DNA of 46,443 bases from Actinomycetes bacterium (GTDB lineage: Bacteria > Actinomycetota > Acidimicrobiia > Acidimicrobiales > Ilumatobacteraceae): NCBI GenBank assembly GCA_014190295.1, contig BJGF01000004.1:1-46443 (forward strand), written 5' to 3'. The position numbers were made by a program, and so were the translations under genes. The notes under the pieces were generated by a model. It did not search any database. It was not told where the DNA came from and was given only the letters and a program-made list of their open reading frames with translations. Positions 20,643 to 25,108 of the stretch are shown here, piece by piece (the first letter of the stretch is position 1; the number at the start of each line of letters is the position of its first letter).

Positions 20643-21278
20643 ATGCGAAAAGCCGTGCTCGCGCTCACAACCATGTTGTTTGTGATCGGCACAATTGGCA
20701 CAAACATTGGCCCAGCGCTAATTGACGAACACCCGAGATTGATCCTGATGCTCAGCGCACGCAACCGCAACCTTTTCGGCGCGGTGCCGTATATCGACCT
20801 AATGAGTTATTTACTAATTGGATTCACGCGGGTGTTGATTGCTGGCGTCGCTCTGTTTTTGGTTGGTCGCTGGTTCGGAACTAAAGCCTTCGGCTGGATC
20901 AAAGGAAATGTTGGCGAAATGCCGGCTATCTACAGGTGGACCGAACGTGCCGTCGATAAAGCAGGCTCGTTGATGGTGGTACTGATGCCGGGAAGCAACG
21001 TCGTCTGCCTGTTGGTGGGTCACAGAAAAATGGCACCGCGCAGGTTCGTGCCATTGTTGATGCTCGGTATAGCGATCAAACTTGCGGTGCTGTGGCGAGG
21101 CGGAAAGTTATTTGAACAGCAAATTAGAGATTTTTTAAATTACATTGAAAAATATCAGTGGTGGGTTGTCGGTATATTGTTTGCAGCATCATCAATTCAG
21201 TCGGCTTTCAAAAATCAAAAAAATCGGGCCAATAAACAATCACAAGGAGAGAATCATGGCAACAAAGAAGAAAACTAA
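20643..21278 (+). CDS. DedA/VTT-like membrane protein
   Basis: A 211-residue membrane protein with hydrophobic segments near residues 5-22, 55-82, 110-130, 138-152 and 172-186. ALFLVGRWFGTKAF and MPGSNVVCLLVGHRKMAPRR are reminiscent of the DedA/SNARE-associated (VTT) pattern, in which a Gly-Arg loop precedes a re-entrant helix. Similarity is partial and I rate the family as probable only. Known DedA proteins flip or scramble lipid carriers, but function here is not established. The C terminus is hydrophilic and Lys/Asn-rich (KNQKNRANKQSQ). Its last 23 bases overlap the start of tpx in a different frame, so the genes are translationally linked. Confidence 0.6.
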   Translation: MRKAVLALTTMLFVIGTIGTNIGPALIDEHPRLILMLSARNRNLFGAVPYIDLMSYLLIGFTRVLIAGVALFLVGRWFGTKAFGWIKGNVGEMPAIYRWTERAVDKAGSLMVVLMPGSNVVCLLVGHRKMAPRRFVPLLMLGIAIKLAVLWRGGKLFEQQIRDFLNYIEKYQWWVVGILFAASSIQSAFKNQKNRANKQSQGENHGNKEEN

Positions 21279-21828
21279 AACGAAAAAAACTGTGAAAAAA
21301 AAGACCGTTAAGAAAACGAGCAAGAAAACCGGCACAACAGTAACTCTGGGTGGCAATCCAGTTTCAGTAAGCGGCAAATTGCCAACCAAAGGCAAGCCTG
21401 CGCCAAAGTTTTCGCTGACCACTAGCGCACTGCAAGATATTTCAAACAAAGATCTTGTGGGCAAAAGAGTTATCTTTAACATTTTCCCGAGCATCGATAC
21501 CCCGACTTGTGCAACAAGCACTCGCAAGTTCAACGAGATCGCATCGTCGCTCGCCAACACAGAGATCTACTGTGTGTCGGCAGACTTGCCATTTGCGCAG
21601 GGCCGTTTTTGTGGTAGCGAAGGTTTGACAAATGTCAAGACTGCTTCGTCATTTCGTACGAACTTTGCTGCCGCTTTCGGCGTGAAGCTTACGAGCAGCG
21701 TGCTCAAGGGTGTGCTCGCCCGAGCGGTAGTCGTTCTAGATGAAAAAGGCAAAGTTCTGCACACAGAACTTGTTGGCGAAATCGCCAGCGAGCCAAACTA
21801 CGAAGCAGCGATCAACTCACTGCGCTAA
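21256..21828 (+). CDS. tpx: Thiol peroxidase (Tpx-type peroxiredoxin) with lysine-rich N-terminal tail
   Basis: An atypical 2-Cys peroxiredoxin that reduces hydroperoxides with thioredoxin. The peroxidatic Cys85 lies in FPSIDTPTCATSTRKF and the resolving Cys119 in GRFCGSEG. GNPVSVSGKLP and the C-terminal NYEAAINSLR also fit Tpx. The ATG at 21256 is preceded by a strong AAGGAGAG. An upstream start at 21145 would add 37 residues unlike the family. The mature-family sequence begins near residue 28. Ahead of it is an extension made almost wholly of Lys, Thr and Val, with 13 Lys in the first 25 residues, which typical Tpx lacks. Such a tail could bind nucleic acid or anionic membrane, but this is speculation. 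It converges on dapB. Confidence 0.9.
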   Translation: MATKKKTKTKKTVKKKTVKKTSKKTGTTVTLGGNPVSVSGKLPTKGKPAPKFSLTTSALQDISNKDLVGKRVIFNIFPSIDTPTCATSTRKFNEIASSLANTEIYCVSADLPFAQGRFCGSEGLTNVKTASSFRTNFAAAFGVKLTSSVLKGVLARAVVVLDEKGKVLHTELVGEIASEPNYEAAINSLR

Positions 21829-22636: not shown

Positions 22637-25108
22637 CTATTGATCGTTTCGCAAGTCGCGATCAAACTCTTCTTCGAAACTCACGCTGACCGCATCTGAC
22701 GGCGCACTGCGAGTGCGATCGTTACGGTCATTACGTCCACCGCGATCGTTGCGATCATTCGAACGCGGACGATCGTTTCGGTCACCGCGACCACCACGAT
22801 CATTCGAACGCGGACGATCGTTTCTATCGTTACGTCCACCACGATCATTCGAACGCGGACGATCACCACGATCTGGACGTGGACCACGCTCGCCATCACC
22901 TGACGAACCCCCAGCCGAGCCCTTGATGACTTCGCCGTCTGGACCAATCAGGCTGAGACTAACTTTGCCACGATCGTCGATGTCATCGACACGCACTTGC
23001 ACTTCGTCGCCGATGTTGAGTACATCTTCGACTCGCGCCACGCGTTGTCCGTTGCCAAGTTTCGAAATGTGCACGAGCCCATCTCGTCCGGGAAGAATAT
23101 TCACGAACGCGCCGAACGCCGCTGTGTTAACGACACGACCCGTGTAAACCGCACCGAGCTCTGCAGTTGGTGGATCAACTATCGCCAAAATTCGAGCTTT
23201 TGCGTCTTCTACTTTTGAGTTGTCTGGCGAACCAATCGTGATGATGCCGGTTGCACCGTCGTCAGAAACGTTGATTTCTGCACCAGTCTCTTGTTGGATC
23301 GTGTTGATTACTTTGCCCTTTGGCCCAATTACTTCGCCGACTTTGTCGAGTGGAATCGTAAACGTGACAATCTTCGGTGCGCTCTCGTTAACCGTTGCGC
23401 GTGGCGCATTGATCGCAGAGTTCATCACATCAAGAATCTTCAAGCGTGCTTCTTTGGCCTGCTGCAATGCCTTGGCCAAAACATCACTTGGGATGCCTTC
23501 GATTTTTGTATCAAGTTGCAATGCAGTAACTGCATCGGCGGTGCCTGCGACTTTGAAGTCCATGTCGCCGAATGCATCTTCTGCACCGAGAATGTCTGTG
23601 AGTGCTGTGTATTTGCCTTGATCAAAGATCAGACCCATCGCGATACCCGCCACTGGTGCAATGATCGGCACACCAGCATCCATCAGCGACAAACTTGATG
23701 CACAAACTGACGCCATTGATGTCGAACCGTTTGATGACAAAACTTCGCTAACTAAACGAAGTGTGTAAGCAAACTTTTCTTGGCTCGGCACAACCGGAAA
23801 CAACGCACGCTCAGCGAGCGCACCGTGTCCGATTTCGCGGCGCTTTGGTGTGCCGACACGACCTGTTTCACCGTTGGCCCATGGAGCCATGTTGTAGTCG
23901 TGCATGTAACGCTTGGATGTCTCTGGAGTGATCGAGTCGATCATCTGGTTCATCTTCGGCATTGCCATCGTCAAGACGTTGAGCACTTGAGTCTCACCGC
24001 GTTGAAACAACCCGGTGCCGTGCGCAGTCGAGATCAAACCAACTTCGGCTGATACTGGACGCAAGTCGGCAGGTCCGCGACCGTCGATACGAATACCTTC
24101 ATCGACCACGCGCTTGCGCACTAATTTTTTGGTGAGTGAACGCACTGCTTCTTTGATTTGCTTCTCTTGAGCAGGAAACTTCTCGGCAAGTTCGGCAAGT
24201 GTTGCAGTTGTTGCTGCATCAATCGCCTCATTGCGCTCGCTCTTTAGTGCGATGCGAATTGCTGGTTGCAATTTTGTGGTTGCGGTGGCTTCTACGGCTG
24301 CAAACAATTCTTCGGTGTAGTCAAGCACAGGTGTGAACTTGAGCGGCTCAATCGCGCCACGAGTTGCGATGACACTTGCAACAAGTTGGCGTTGCAATTT
24401 GATCGACTCTTTGATGAACGGTTTGCAGGCTTCTAATCCGCTTGCGATAACTTCTTCGTTCACTTTTGGTGCACCAGCTTCGTAATACGAGAAACTCTTC
24501 TCGGTTCCGCCTGCTTCAACCATCATTACGGCAACATCGCCGTTGTCAAGTTCACGACCAGCAACGACCAGCTCGAATGTCGACTCGTCGCCTTCTTCGA
24601 ATGTTGGATGTGCGATCCATGTGCCGTCTTGGCTGTATGCCAAACGCACTGCGCCAATCGGACCATCAAACGGAATACCCGAGATCATGAACGATGCTGA
24701 TGCTGCGTTGATCGCGAGAACATCATGTGGATTAGTTTGATCGGCACCAATGACGGTGATCACAACTTGAGTTTCGTTGCGGTAACCATCTGGGAAGGCC
24801 GGTCGCAATGGACGGTCAGTTAAACGACACGTAAGAATTGCTTGCTGACTTGGACGACCTTCGCGGCGAAAAAATGAGCCAGGGATTTTTCCGGCTGCGT
24901 ATGCGCGCTCTTCAACGTCAACTGTCAACGGAAAGAAGTCAATGCCGTCACGCACGCCCTTTGCGGCGTTCGCTGTTGCAAGAACTGTCGTCTTGCCGAT
25001 TTTTGCTACTACTGCTCCTTGCGACTGCAAAGCAAGTTTGCCCGTCTCGAAGGTGAGTGTTCTATCGGTCCCTGAAATTGGACCGCTTACTGAAATGGCC
25101 TCGGCCAT
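22637..25108 (-). CDS. pnp: Polyribonucleotide nucleotidyltransferase (PNPase)
   Basis: The 823-residue phosphorolytic 3'-5' exoribonuclease and RNA-tailing enzyme. Two RNase PH-like domains occupy the first roughly 540 residues; the second, catalytic, one includes RRREIGHGALAERAL-like sequence after TGRVGTPK. A KH domain follows with the GxxG loop EVIGPKGK, then an S1 RNA-binding domain at about 643-730 (GAVYTGRVVNTAAFGAFVNI). The tail after about 735 is unusual: tandem Arg/Asp/Asn/Gly-rich repeats that probably add disordered RNA-binding or protein-contact capacity. A clear ribosome-binding site (AAAGGAAA) precedes the ATG. The gene follows rpsO after 187 bases, the classical rpsO-pnp order, and precedes dapB by 13 bases. 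Confidence 0.96.
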   Translation of the reverse strand: MAEAISVSGPISGTDRTLTFETGKLALQSQGAVVAKIGKTTVLATANAAKGVRDGIDFFPLTVDVEERAYAAGKIPGSFFRREGRPSQQAILTCRLTDRPLRPAFPDGYRNETQVVITVIGADQTNPHDVLAINAASASFMISGIPFDGPIGAVRLAYSQDGTWIAHPTFEEGDESTFELVVAGRELDNGDVAVMMVEAGGTEKSFSYYEAGAPKVNEEVIASGLEACKPFIKESIKLQRQLVASVIATRGAIEPLKFTPVLDYTEELFAAVEATATTKLQPAIRIALKSERNEAIDAATTATLAELAEKFPAQEKQIKEAVRSLTKKLVRKRVVDEGIRIDGRGPADLRPVSAEVGLISTAHGTGLFQRGETQVLNVLTMAMPKMNQMIDSITPETSKRYMHDYNMAPWANGETGRVGTPKRREIGHGALAERALFPVVPSQEKFAYTLRLVSEVLSSNGSTSMASVCASSLSLMDAGVPIIAPVAGIAMGLIFDQGKYTALTDILGAEDAFGDMDFKVAGTADAVTALQLDTKIEGIPSDVLAKALQQAKEARLKILDVMNSAINAPRATVNESAPKIVTFTIPLDKVGEVIGPKGKVINTIQQETGAEINVSDDGATGIITIGSPDNSKVEDAKARILAIVDPPTAELGAVYTGRVVNTAAFGAFVNILPGRDGLVHISKLGNGQRVARVEDVLNIGDEVQVRVDDIDDRGKVSLSLIGPDGEVIKGSAGGSSGDGERGPRPDRGDRPRSNDRGGRNDRNDRPRSNDRGGRGDRNDRPRSNDRNDRGGRNDRNDRTRSAPSDAVSVSFEEEFDRDLRNDQ
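22752..22864 (-). repeat. 45-base tandem repeats inside the pnp tail
   Basis: A near-identical segment beginning CGATCATTCGAACGCGGACG on the plus strand occurs at 22752, 22797 and 22842, exactly 45 bases apart. It encodes a 15-residue unit containing NDRPRSNDRGGR on the minus strand. Shorter degenerate copies lie on either side. The period is a multiple of three, so copy changes keep the frame. Confidence 0.85.

Follow-up and report, generated by a model that had tools for sequence, protein, structure and literature searches.

A Lysine-Rich N-Terminal Tail on the Thiol Peroxidase of Freshwater Ilumatobacteraceae as a Candidate Polycation Anchor on Nucleoid DNA

Introduction

Dps, a ferritin-like four-helix dodecamer acting by iron oxidation, consumes peroxide, and electrostatic binding to DNA is reported for another antioxidant enzyme, the Mn-superoxide dismutase of E. 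coli, which is not known to have an appended tail. The disordered lysine-rich N-termini of Dps are described to bind DNA (PMC8199988). In actinobacteria, TopA, Ku and HupB use lysine repeats to bind DNA, and repeats of this kind were found on DNA-binding proteins by a search of the Streptomyces proteome (PMC7398561); HbhA, which carries AKKA repeats, likewise binds DNA (PMC10665949). TopA, HupB/HupS, Ku and HbhA are DNA-acting proteins, and the tails described for them are C-terminal and consist of KK runs with small spacers, appended to a folded domain.

We analyzed a window of 46,443 nucleotides, meaning the whole stretch of DNA studied here, which is contig 4 in the 151-contig assembly of an Ilumatobacteraceae genome of 1.77 Mb. 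The G+C content across the window is 48–51%, and the named relatives are mostly MAGs labelled Ilumatobacteraceae, Acidimicrobiaceae or 'Acidimicrobium', several of them derived from lakes and three labelled acIV. A preliminary description of this DNA had reported a thiol peroxidase (Tpx) starting with a lysine-rich tail, had compared the latter to the tails of actinobacterial nucleoid proteins, and had proposed a peroxidase tethered to DNA, a design of which it knew no described case. We found no lysine-tailed peroxiredoxin in the open-access papers searched either, and the open-access literature searched on acIV and Ilumatobacter contained nothing on lysine tails; isolates of acIV are mentioned in PMC12381374. 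Both the enzyme and the type of tail are known; their combination is new, and it proved to be part of a larger group of tailed enzymes that had not been expected.

An Ordinary Tpx Core behind a Lysine-Rich Tail

The tpx gene (21256–21828, forward strand) codes for 190 residues, consisting of the tail MATKKKTKTKKTVKKKTVKKTSKKT and a complete Tpx core of the atypical 2-Cys peroxiredoxin type (21331–21828 including the stop codon, forward strand). The core matched the Tpx equivalog model NF001808 of NCBIfam with 216.1 bits, compared to a curated cut-off of 123, which identifies it as a member of this family. The match spans residues 27/28 to 189, and the closest PDB entry is 4je1 (1.3e-55). Solved Tpx structures align from residue 27–29 of the query onward, except for 9f5v/9f64, which align from residue 16; the entries 1xvq/1y25 presumably represent the Tpx of M. 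tuberculosis. Cys85 (codon 21508–21510, forward strand) and Cys119 (codon 21610–21612, forward strand), which we take to be the peroxidatic and the resolving cysteine, respectively, are invariant in a 41-row alignment, as are Thr82 and Arg156. The tailed proteins share these four residues and the core fold with the known Tpx family, whereas neither the cationic charge of the core nor the conserved lysine tail is a feature of the family; both belong to the tailed Tpx. The strict motif DT[PS][TV]C is present in 26 of 27 tailed cores, the exception being that of a more distant relative (L058), which reads DTNTC. An AlphaFold2 model based on the 41-row alignment showed the mixed alpha/beta fold of the Redoxin/Tpx family with a confident core (pLDDT 73–97 in 10-residue blocks from residue 31). 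Judged from the conserved residues, the enzyme is an ordinary Tpx that has kept its redox cysteines and is predicted to be an active peroxidase.

The tail comprises the 25 codons from the ATG at 21256 to 21330 (forward strand), with 13 lysines and no acidic residues, and thus agrees with the preliminary description in its composition and in being followed by a normal Tpx; the interval of 21256–21345 given there extends beyond the tail, with the remainder coding for the first residues of the core. It is predicted to be disordered, as the AlphaFold2 model contains no secondary structure before residue 27 and gives pLDDT values of 57 for residues 1–10 and 53 for residues 11–20. The strong ribosome-binding site which had been invoked for this start is a Shine-Dalgarno site AAGGAG (21244–21249, forward strand), located 6 nt upstream of the ATG. 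Among 29 distinct tailed proteins, the tails are 23–53 residues long (mean 37), contain 39–57% Lys and not a single Asp or Glu in 1071 residues, and add 12–28 lysines to each Tpx chain. The tails of 27 of these proteins together contain 488 Lys, 159 Ala and 9 Pro in 990 residues, with mixed lysine codons (251 AAA and 237 AAG). A 24-codon stretch with an MA..KKK start in the source genome (L105) was considered as well and rejected as a gene.

Like the known lysine-repeat tails, which occur in the same phylum, the Tpx tails are low-complexity, lysine-rich and disordered extensions on a folded domain, but they do not contain the proline-containing repeats of the PAKKA/AKKA type. In contrast to TopA, HupB, Ku and HbhA, Tpx is an antioxidant enzyme and carries its tail at the N-terminus, with Ala, Ser, Val and Thr as spacers and little Pro. 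With Dps it shares the consumption of peroxide and a disordered lysine-rich N-terminus, which is longer and much richer in Lys in Tpx and for which DNA binding is described in Dps (PMC8199988) and predicted here, but it is a small thiol enzyme instead of a ferritin-like dodecamer. The Mn-superoxide dismutase of E. coli is an antioxidant enzyme too, but a different one.

Distribution and Origin of the Tail

The N-termini of Tpx proteins were surveyed in the genus, the family, the order and the phylum Actinomycetota, as the preliminary description had proposed. Of 29 genomes of the genus (g1), including the source genome, 22 contain a Tpx at a match threshold of 1e-20 and 7 contain none; three of the genes have lost their N-termini at contig ends, and all 19 readable orthologues carry the tail, every one of them starting with MA[ST]KKK. 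Tpx was found in 68 of 121 genomes sampled from the family, distributed over genus g1 (9 genomes), genus g5 (7) and other genera (52). The tail is present in all six readable orthologues of g5, the seventh (G072) showing only N before the core, and is absent from all 52 Tpx-bearing genomes of the other genera, all of which were read. It is also present in L058, which is 71% identical. Outside the family, Tpx was detected in 43 further genomes by the order search and in 11 further ones by the phylum search; none of the 20 proteins read among these 54 has a tail, and the remaining 34, whose matches do not begin before query residue 25, provide less strong evidence. Among the sequences read, the tail is confined to g1, g5 and L058, and an absence from close relatives, which had been named as an observation speaking against the tail, did not occur.

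We built a tree from 106 cores, 27 of them tailed and 79 untailed, leaving out three short sequences (two tailed fragments and an untailed one). It separates all tailed proteins from the rest by a branch with a support of 100/98, so that one change suffices. The nearest rows to the tailed group are untailed proteins of the g25 type, and the tail is located between the ancestral Met-Ala and the ancestral TLGGNPV strand. According to the tree, a single gain of the tail took place in the common ancestor of g1, g5 and the lineage of L058, which form a freshwater clade of Ilumatobacteraceae.

Charge Reversal of the Core

The tailed cores are cationic, with net charges of +1 to +6 (mean +3.9, n = 27), unlike those of the untailed relatives, which range from −15 to 0 (mean −9.4, n = 79); the mean core charges are −6.4 in the untailed near sister g25 and −2.6 in g9. 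As a control for a shift of the whole lineage, we compared the ORFs from 435 kb of the source genome (the window and 20 further stretches) with those from 380 kb of a g25 genome (G094). Per 100 residues, the 61 reciprocal best pairs obtained differ by +1.65 charges on average, with a standard deviation of 2.18, and the Tpx core, with a gain of +6.83 per 100 residues, ranks second among them. The first rank is taken by an O6-methylguanine DNA methyltransferase (L265:15025–15528, reverse strand; +21 vs. 0), and ranks 3 to 6 by a PAP2 protein, a DUF3090 protein, a glycosyltransferase and a hydrolase. The charge shift is partly lineage-wide, but Tpx lies well beyond that. From the core tree and the core charges, the acquisition of the tail and the charge reversal of the core fall on one branch.

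We propose that an ordinary Tpx acquired once, in this ancestor, a polycationic and disordered extension at its N-terminus, and with it a core of positive charge. As an anchor acting through charge and independently of sequence, the tail would keep the peroxidase attached to a polyanion of the cell, which would most likely be the nucleoid DNA and possibly RNA, and peroxide would then be consumed beside the nucleic acid. Tpx is a dimer, which would double the 12–28 added lysines, and a protein of this charge is expected to attach to polyanions electrostatically. We infer the translation of the tail in the cell, the binding, the target and the benefit. A Tpx tail serving as a polycation anchor, mainly on nucleoid DNA, is the best explanation of the whole set of observations, and we assign it a probability of about one half, with the binding itself being predicted. 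As for its parts, the tailed Tpx probably binds a polyanion, the chances of DNA being the main target are evenly balanced, and protection of DNA as the resulting benefit is a tentative suggestion.

Other Lysine-Tailed Proteins and the Nature of the Polyanion

Other proteins of these genomes carry similar tails. We used a KKxxKKxxKK search solely for finding genes, because the counts overlap within one gene and a reversed control matches too; the names given to the tailed proteins rest on one member of each kind. In the source genome, tails were detected at the C-terminal ends of the glutamine synthetase GlnII and endonuclease III and at the N-terminal ends of a PafC/WYL regulator, a long-chain-fatty-acid-CoA ligase and, with one mismatch, GyrA; one of the two HU genes ends in KPVAKKPVAKKKKR. 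The 435 kb sample contains 413 ORFs with a length of 100 aa or more, and 6 of these have a lysine-rich 20-mer, one of them coding for FtsH with a lysine-rich N-tail ahead of the first membrane segment; in the sample of G094, the corresponding number is 2 of 357 ORFs. No tail is present on the two further peroxidases looked at in the source genome, which are KatG and a PrxQ-like protein.

When 22 genomes were compared, those of g1 repeated the set of tailed endonuclease III, acyl-CoA ligase, GyrA and GlnII, and those of g5 showed tails on RidA-type proteins, TopA, the ribosomal protein L4, GlnII and endonuclease III. The set of g9 consists of an ErcA-like alcohol dehydrogenase, PafC/WYL and a CoA ligase, and that of g25 mainly of HU and a protein weakly resembling the YteA family. 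KKxxKKxxKK matches were missing from five of the 22 genomes, one of g9 and four larger ones of the family. As judged from the matches, lysine tails have their widest distribution on DNA proteins, and some enzymes carry them too where the genome is small. The likeness to nucleoid-protein tails noted in the preliminary description gains from this comparison, as the same genomes carry tails on HU, GyrA, endonuclease III and PafC/WYL.

Several of these proteins were looked at individually. The tail of endonuclease III is C-terminal in four g1 genomes (L159, L220, L191, L192) and N-terminal in a g5 genome (L203), and from these sequences it seems to have swapped ends or arisen twice. The RidA-type proteins of g5 carry N-tails of about 25–35 residues (L227, L230, L231, L234), the long-chain-fatty-acid-CoA ligases of g1 and g9 tails of about 50 residues or more (L154, L221, L224, L211, L238), the GlnII-type glutamine synthetases of g1 and g5 lysine-rich C-tails (L147, L223, L232), and the ErcA-like iron-type alcohol dehydrogenases of g9 N-terminal lysine tails of about 40–60 residues (L212, L214, L237). 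Long repeats of the KKLDLQKKLAQKKKLEI type are present in an ORF at L267:8732–9784, which gave no Pfam match at 1e-5. Within the window, a PNPase-like protein named from its sequence (22637–25108, reverse strand) ends in a long RGGRNDRNDRPRSND repeat, a further basic tail of low complexity, which may be in contact with nucleic acid.

The nucleoid appears as the most likely site for the tailed Tpx because of the tails on HU, GyrA and endonuclease III in the same genome and the published precedents of lysine repeats and Dps, and tails at either end of endonuclease III are expected if their presence matters and not their position. Counted against an anchor on DNA are the tails on enzymes without a known DNA role, the untailed KatG and PrxQ-like proteins, the low proline content, the adjacent gene for a membrane protein, the partly lineage-wide shift in core charge and the fact that the absence of Dps does not track the tail. 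Since GlnII, the acyl-CoA ligase, RidA, the Fe-type alcohol dehydrogenase, FtsH and L4 are tailed as well, it is possible that the tail anchors proteins to polyanions in general. Its main target would then be RNA and ribosomes or polyphosphate, and lysine tails would gather many cytosolic enzymes, with Tpx as one client, which would suit the tails on metabolic enzymes and L4 and those on RidA-type proteins in all four g5 genomes examined; we consider this somewhat unlikely, as about half of the identified kinds of tailed proteins are DNA proteins (HU, GyrA, TopA, endonuclease III and PafC/WYL).

We also searched for genes of ferritins and Dps, which were found in none of 11 g1 genomes, a result in favor of the anchor, in none of four out of five tailed g5 genomes, the fifth showing ferritin-like hits, and in none of five untailed g25 genomes. 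Because Dps is missing from the untailed g25 genomes also, a role of the tailed Tpx as a Dps substitute is possible and not specifically supported, and the gene contents only weakly suggest a replacement of a lost Dps by the tail. KatG (PF00141) is present in 13 of 26 genomes, without a clear link to the tail. It is a doubtful extension of the nucleoid anchor that a Dps-less, genome-reduced freshwater lineage would have made its Tpx nucleoid-bound via the tail and the core reversal, as one case of a broader practice in which selected enzymes are brought to the nucleoid by lysine tails that can be exchanged among them.

The Upstream VTT/DedA-Like Protein

The gene upstream of tpx (20643–21278, forward strand) codes for a VTT/DedA-like membrane protein, which matched Pfam PF09335 with 28 bits, under the cut-off of 33.9. 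A VTT gene is the neighbor of tpx throughout the family. Among the distinct loci, it precedes tpx on the same strand at 28 of the 29 with a tail and at 52 of the 80 without one; it was not found at one tailed locus and 28 untailed ones, the latter mostly outside the family or with short upstream DNA. This pairing would fit a tail that docks on anionic lipid and places Tpx beside a conserved membrane partner, as would the lysine-rich N-tail of FtsH. However, the pair occurs untailed in the rest of the family, the VTT protein is itself cationic (mean +11.9 where it is beside a tailed Tpx) and offers no acidic dock, and the tail as read from its sequence appears to have neither a hydrophobic face nor a lipidation motif, which makes such docking improbable. 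Being cationic and older than the tail, the VTT protein does not explain it, and an acidic VTT partner serving as a dock for the tail was rejected for the same charge.

Of the 28 VTT genes at tailed loci, 27 end 12–73 nt ahead of the tail. The source genome is the sole case among the tailed loci in which the 3′ end of the VTT gene runs into tpx, by 23 nt; the C-terminus of the VTT protein differs from those of the relatives, possibly by a frameshift. We also considered that the tail was borrowed from the VTT reading frame and rejected this, because VTT stops before the tail in 27 of 28 cases and the overlap is special to the source genome.

Constraint on the Tail and Its Translation Start

Codon changes in the tails were counted in five near pairs of proteins. 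The 94 lysine sites show 19 synonymous and 6 Lys-to-other differences, 5 of the latter being exchanges with Arg or Asn, compared to a neutral expectation of 3.25–4.5 amino-acid changes per synonymous one for single-base changes without selection; the ratio is a rough one because the pairs were hand-picked for equal length and nearness and the repeats aligned position by position. The 91 other sites of the tails show 12 synonymous and 27 amino-acid differences, with nearly all replacements among small, short polar and aliphatic residues. The substitution pattern indicates that selection holds the charge and composition of the tail, not its exact sequence.

A lysine repeat grown by slippage in a lineage drifting basic, which has no specific target and is kept for solubility or is too harmless to lose, would be in accord with the variable tail length of 23–53 aa and the proteome-wide basic shift of +1.65 per 100 aa. 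We regard this as quite improbable, since the lysine codons are constrained while neighboring sites vary, the tail was never lost in 25 readable genes of two genera, acidic residues are completely missing from the 1071 tail residues, the charge gain of the Tpx core is far over the proteome mean, and only 6 of 413 sampled ORFs contain such a stretch.

Finally, a true translation start after the tail is hardly credible, as an SD-like motif precedes the tail start in 29 of 29 distinct tailed orthologues and the tail codons are conserved as Lys, and apart from a GTG inside the tail in the window, 13 codons before the core, we found no support for it. Between the tail start and the core, no start codon (ATG, GTG or TTG) is present in 18 of the 29, only GTG or TTG in 10, and an ATG in one; in most species, the core can thus not be initiated downstream of the tail. 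By all comparative evidence, the tail is protein-coding and not a miscalled start.

Conclusions

The presence of similar tails on a few further proteins of these genomes, attached to one terminus or the other, suggests a simple and evolvable way to position enzymes in the cell, and makes it possible to test directly how far peroxide defence depends on proximity to DNA. If the tail of Tpx binds DNA, these little-studied lake bacteria would possess a peroxiredoxin that guards the chromosome by its location, as a thiol-based counterpart of Dps.
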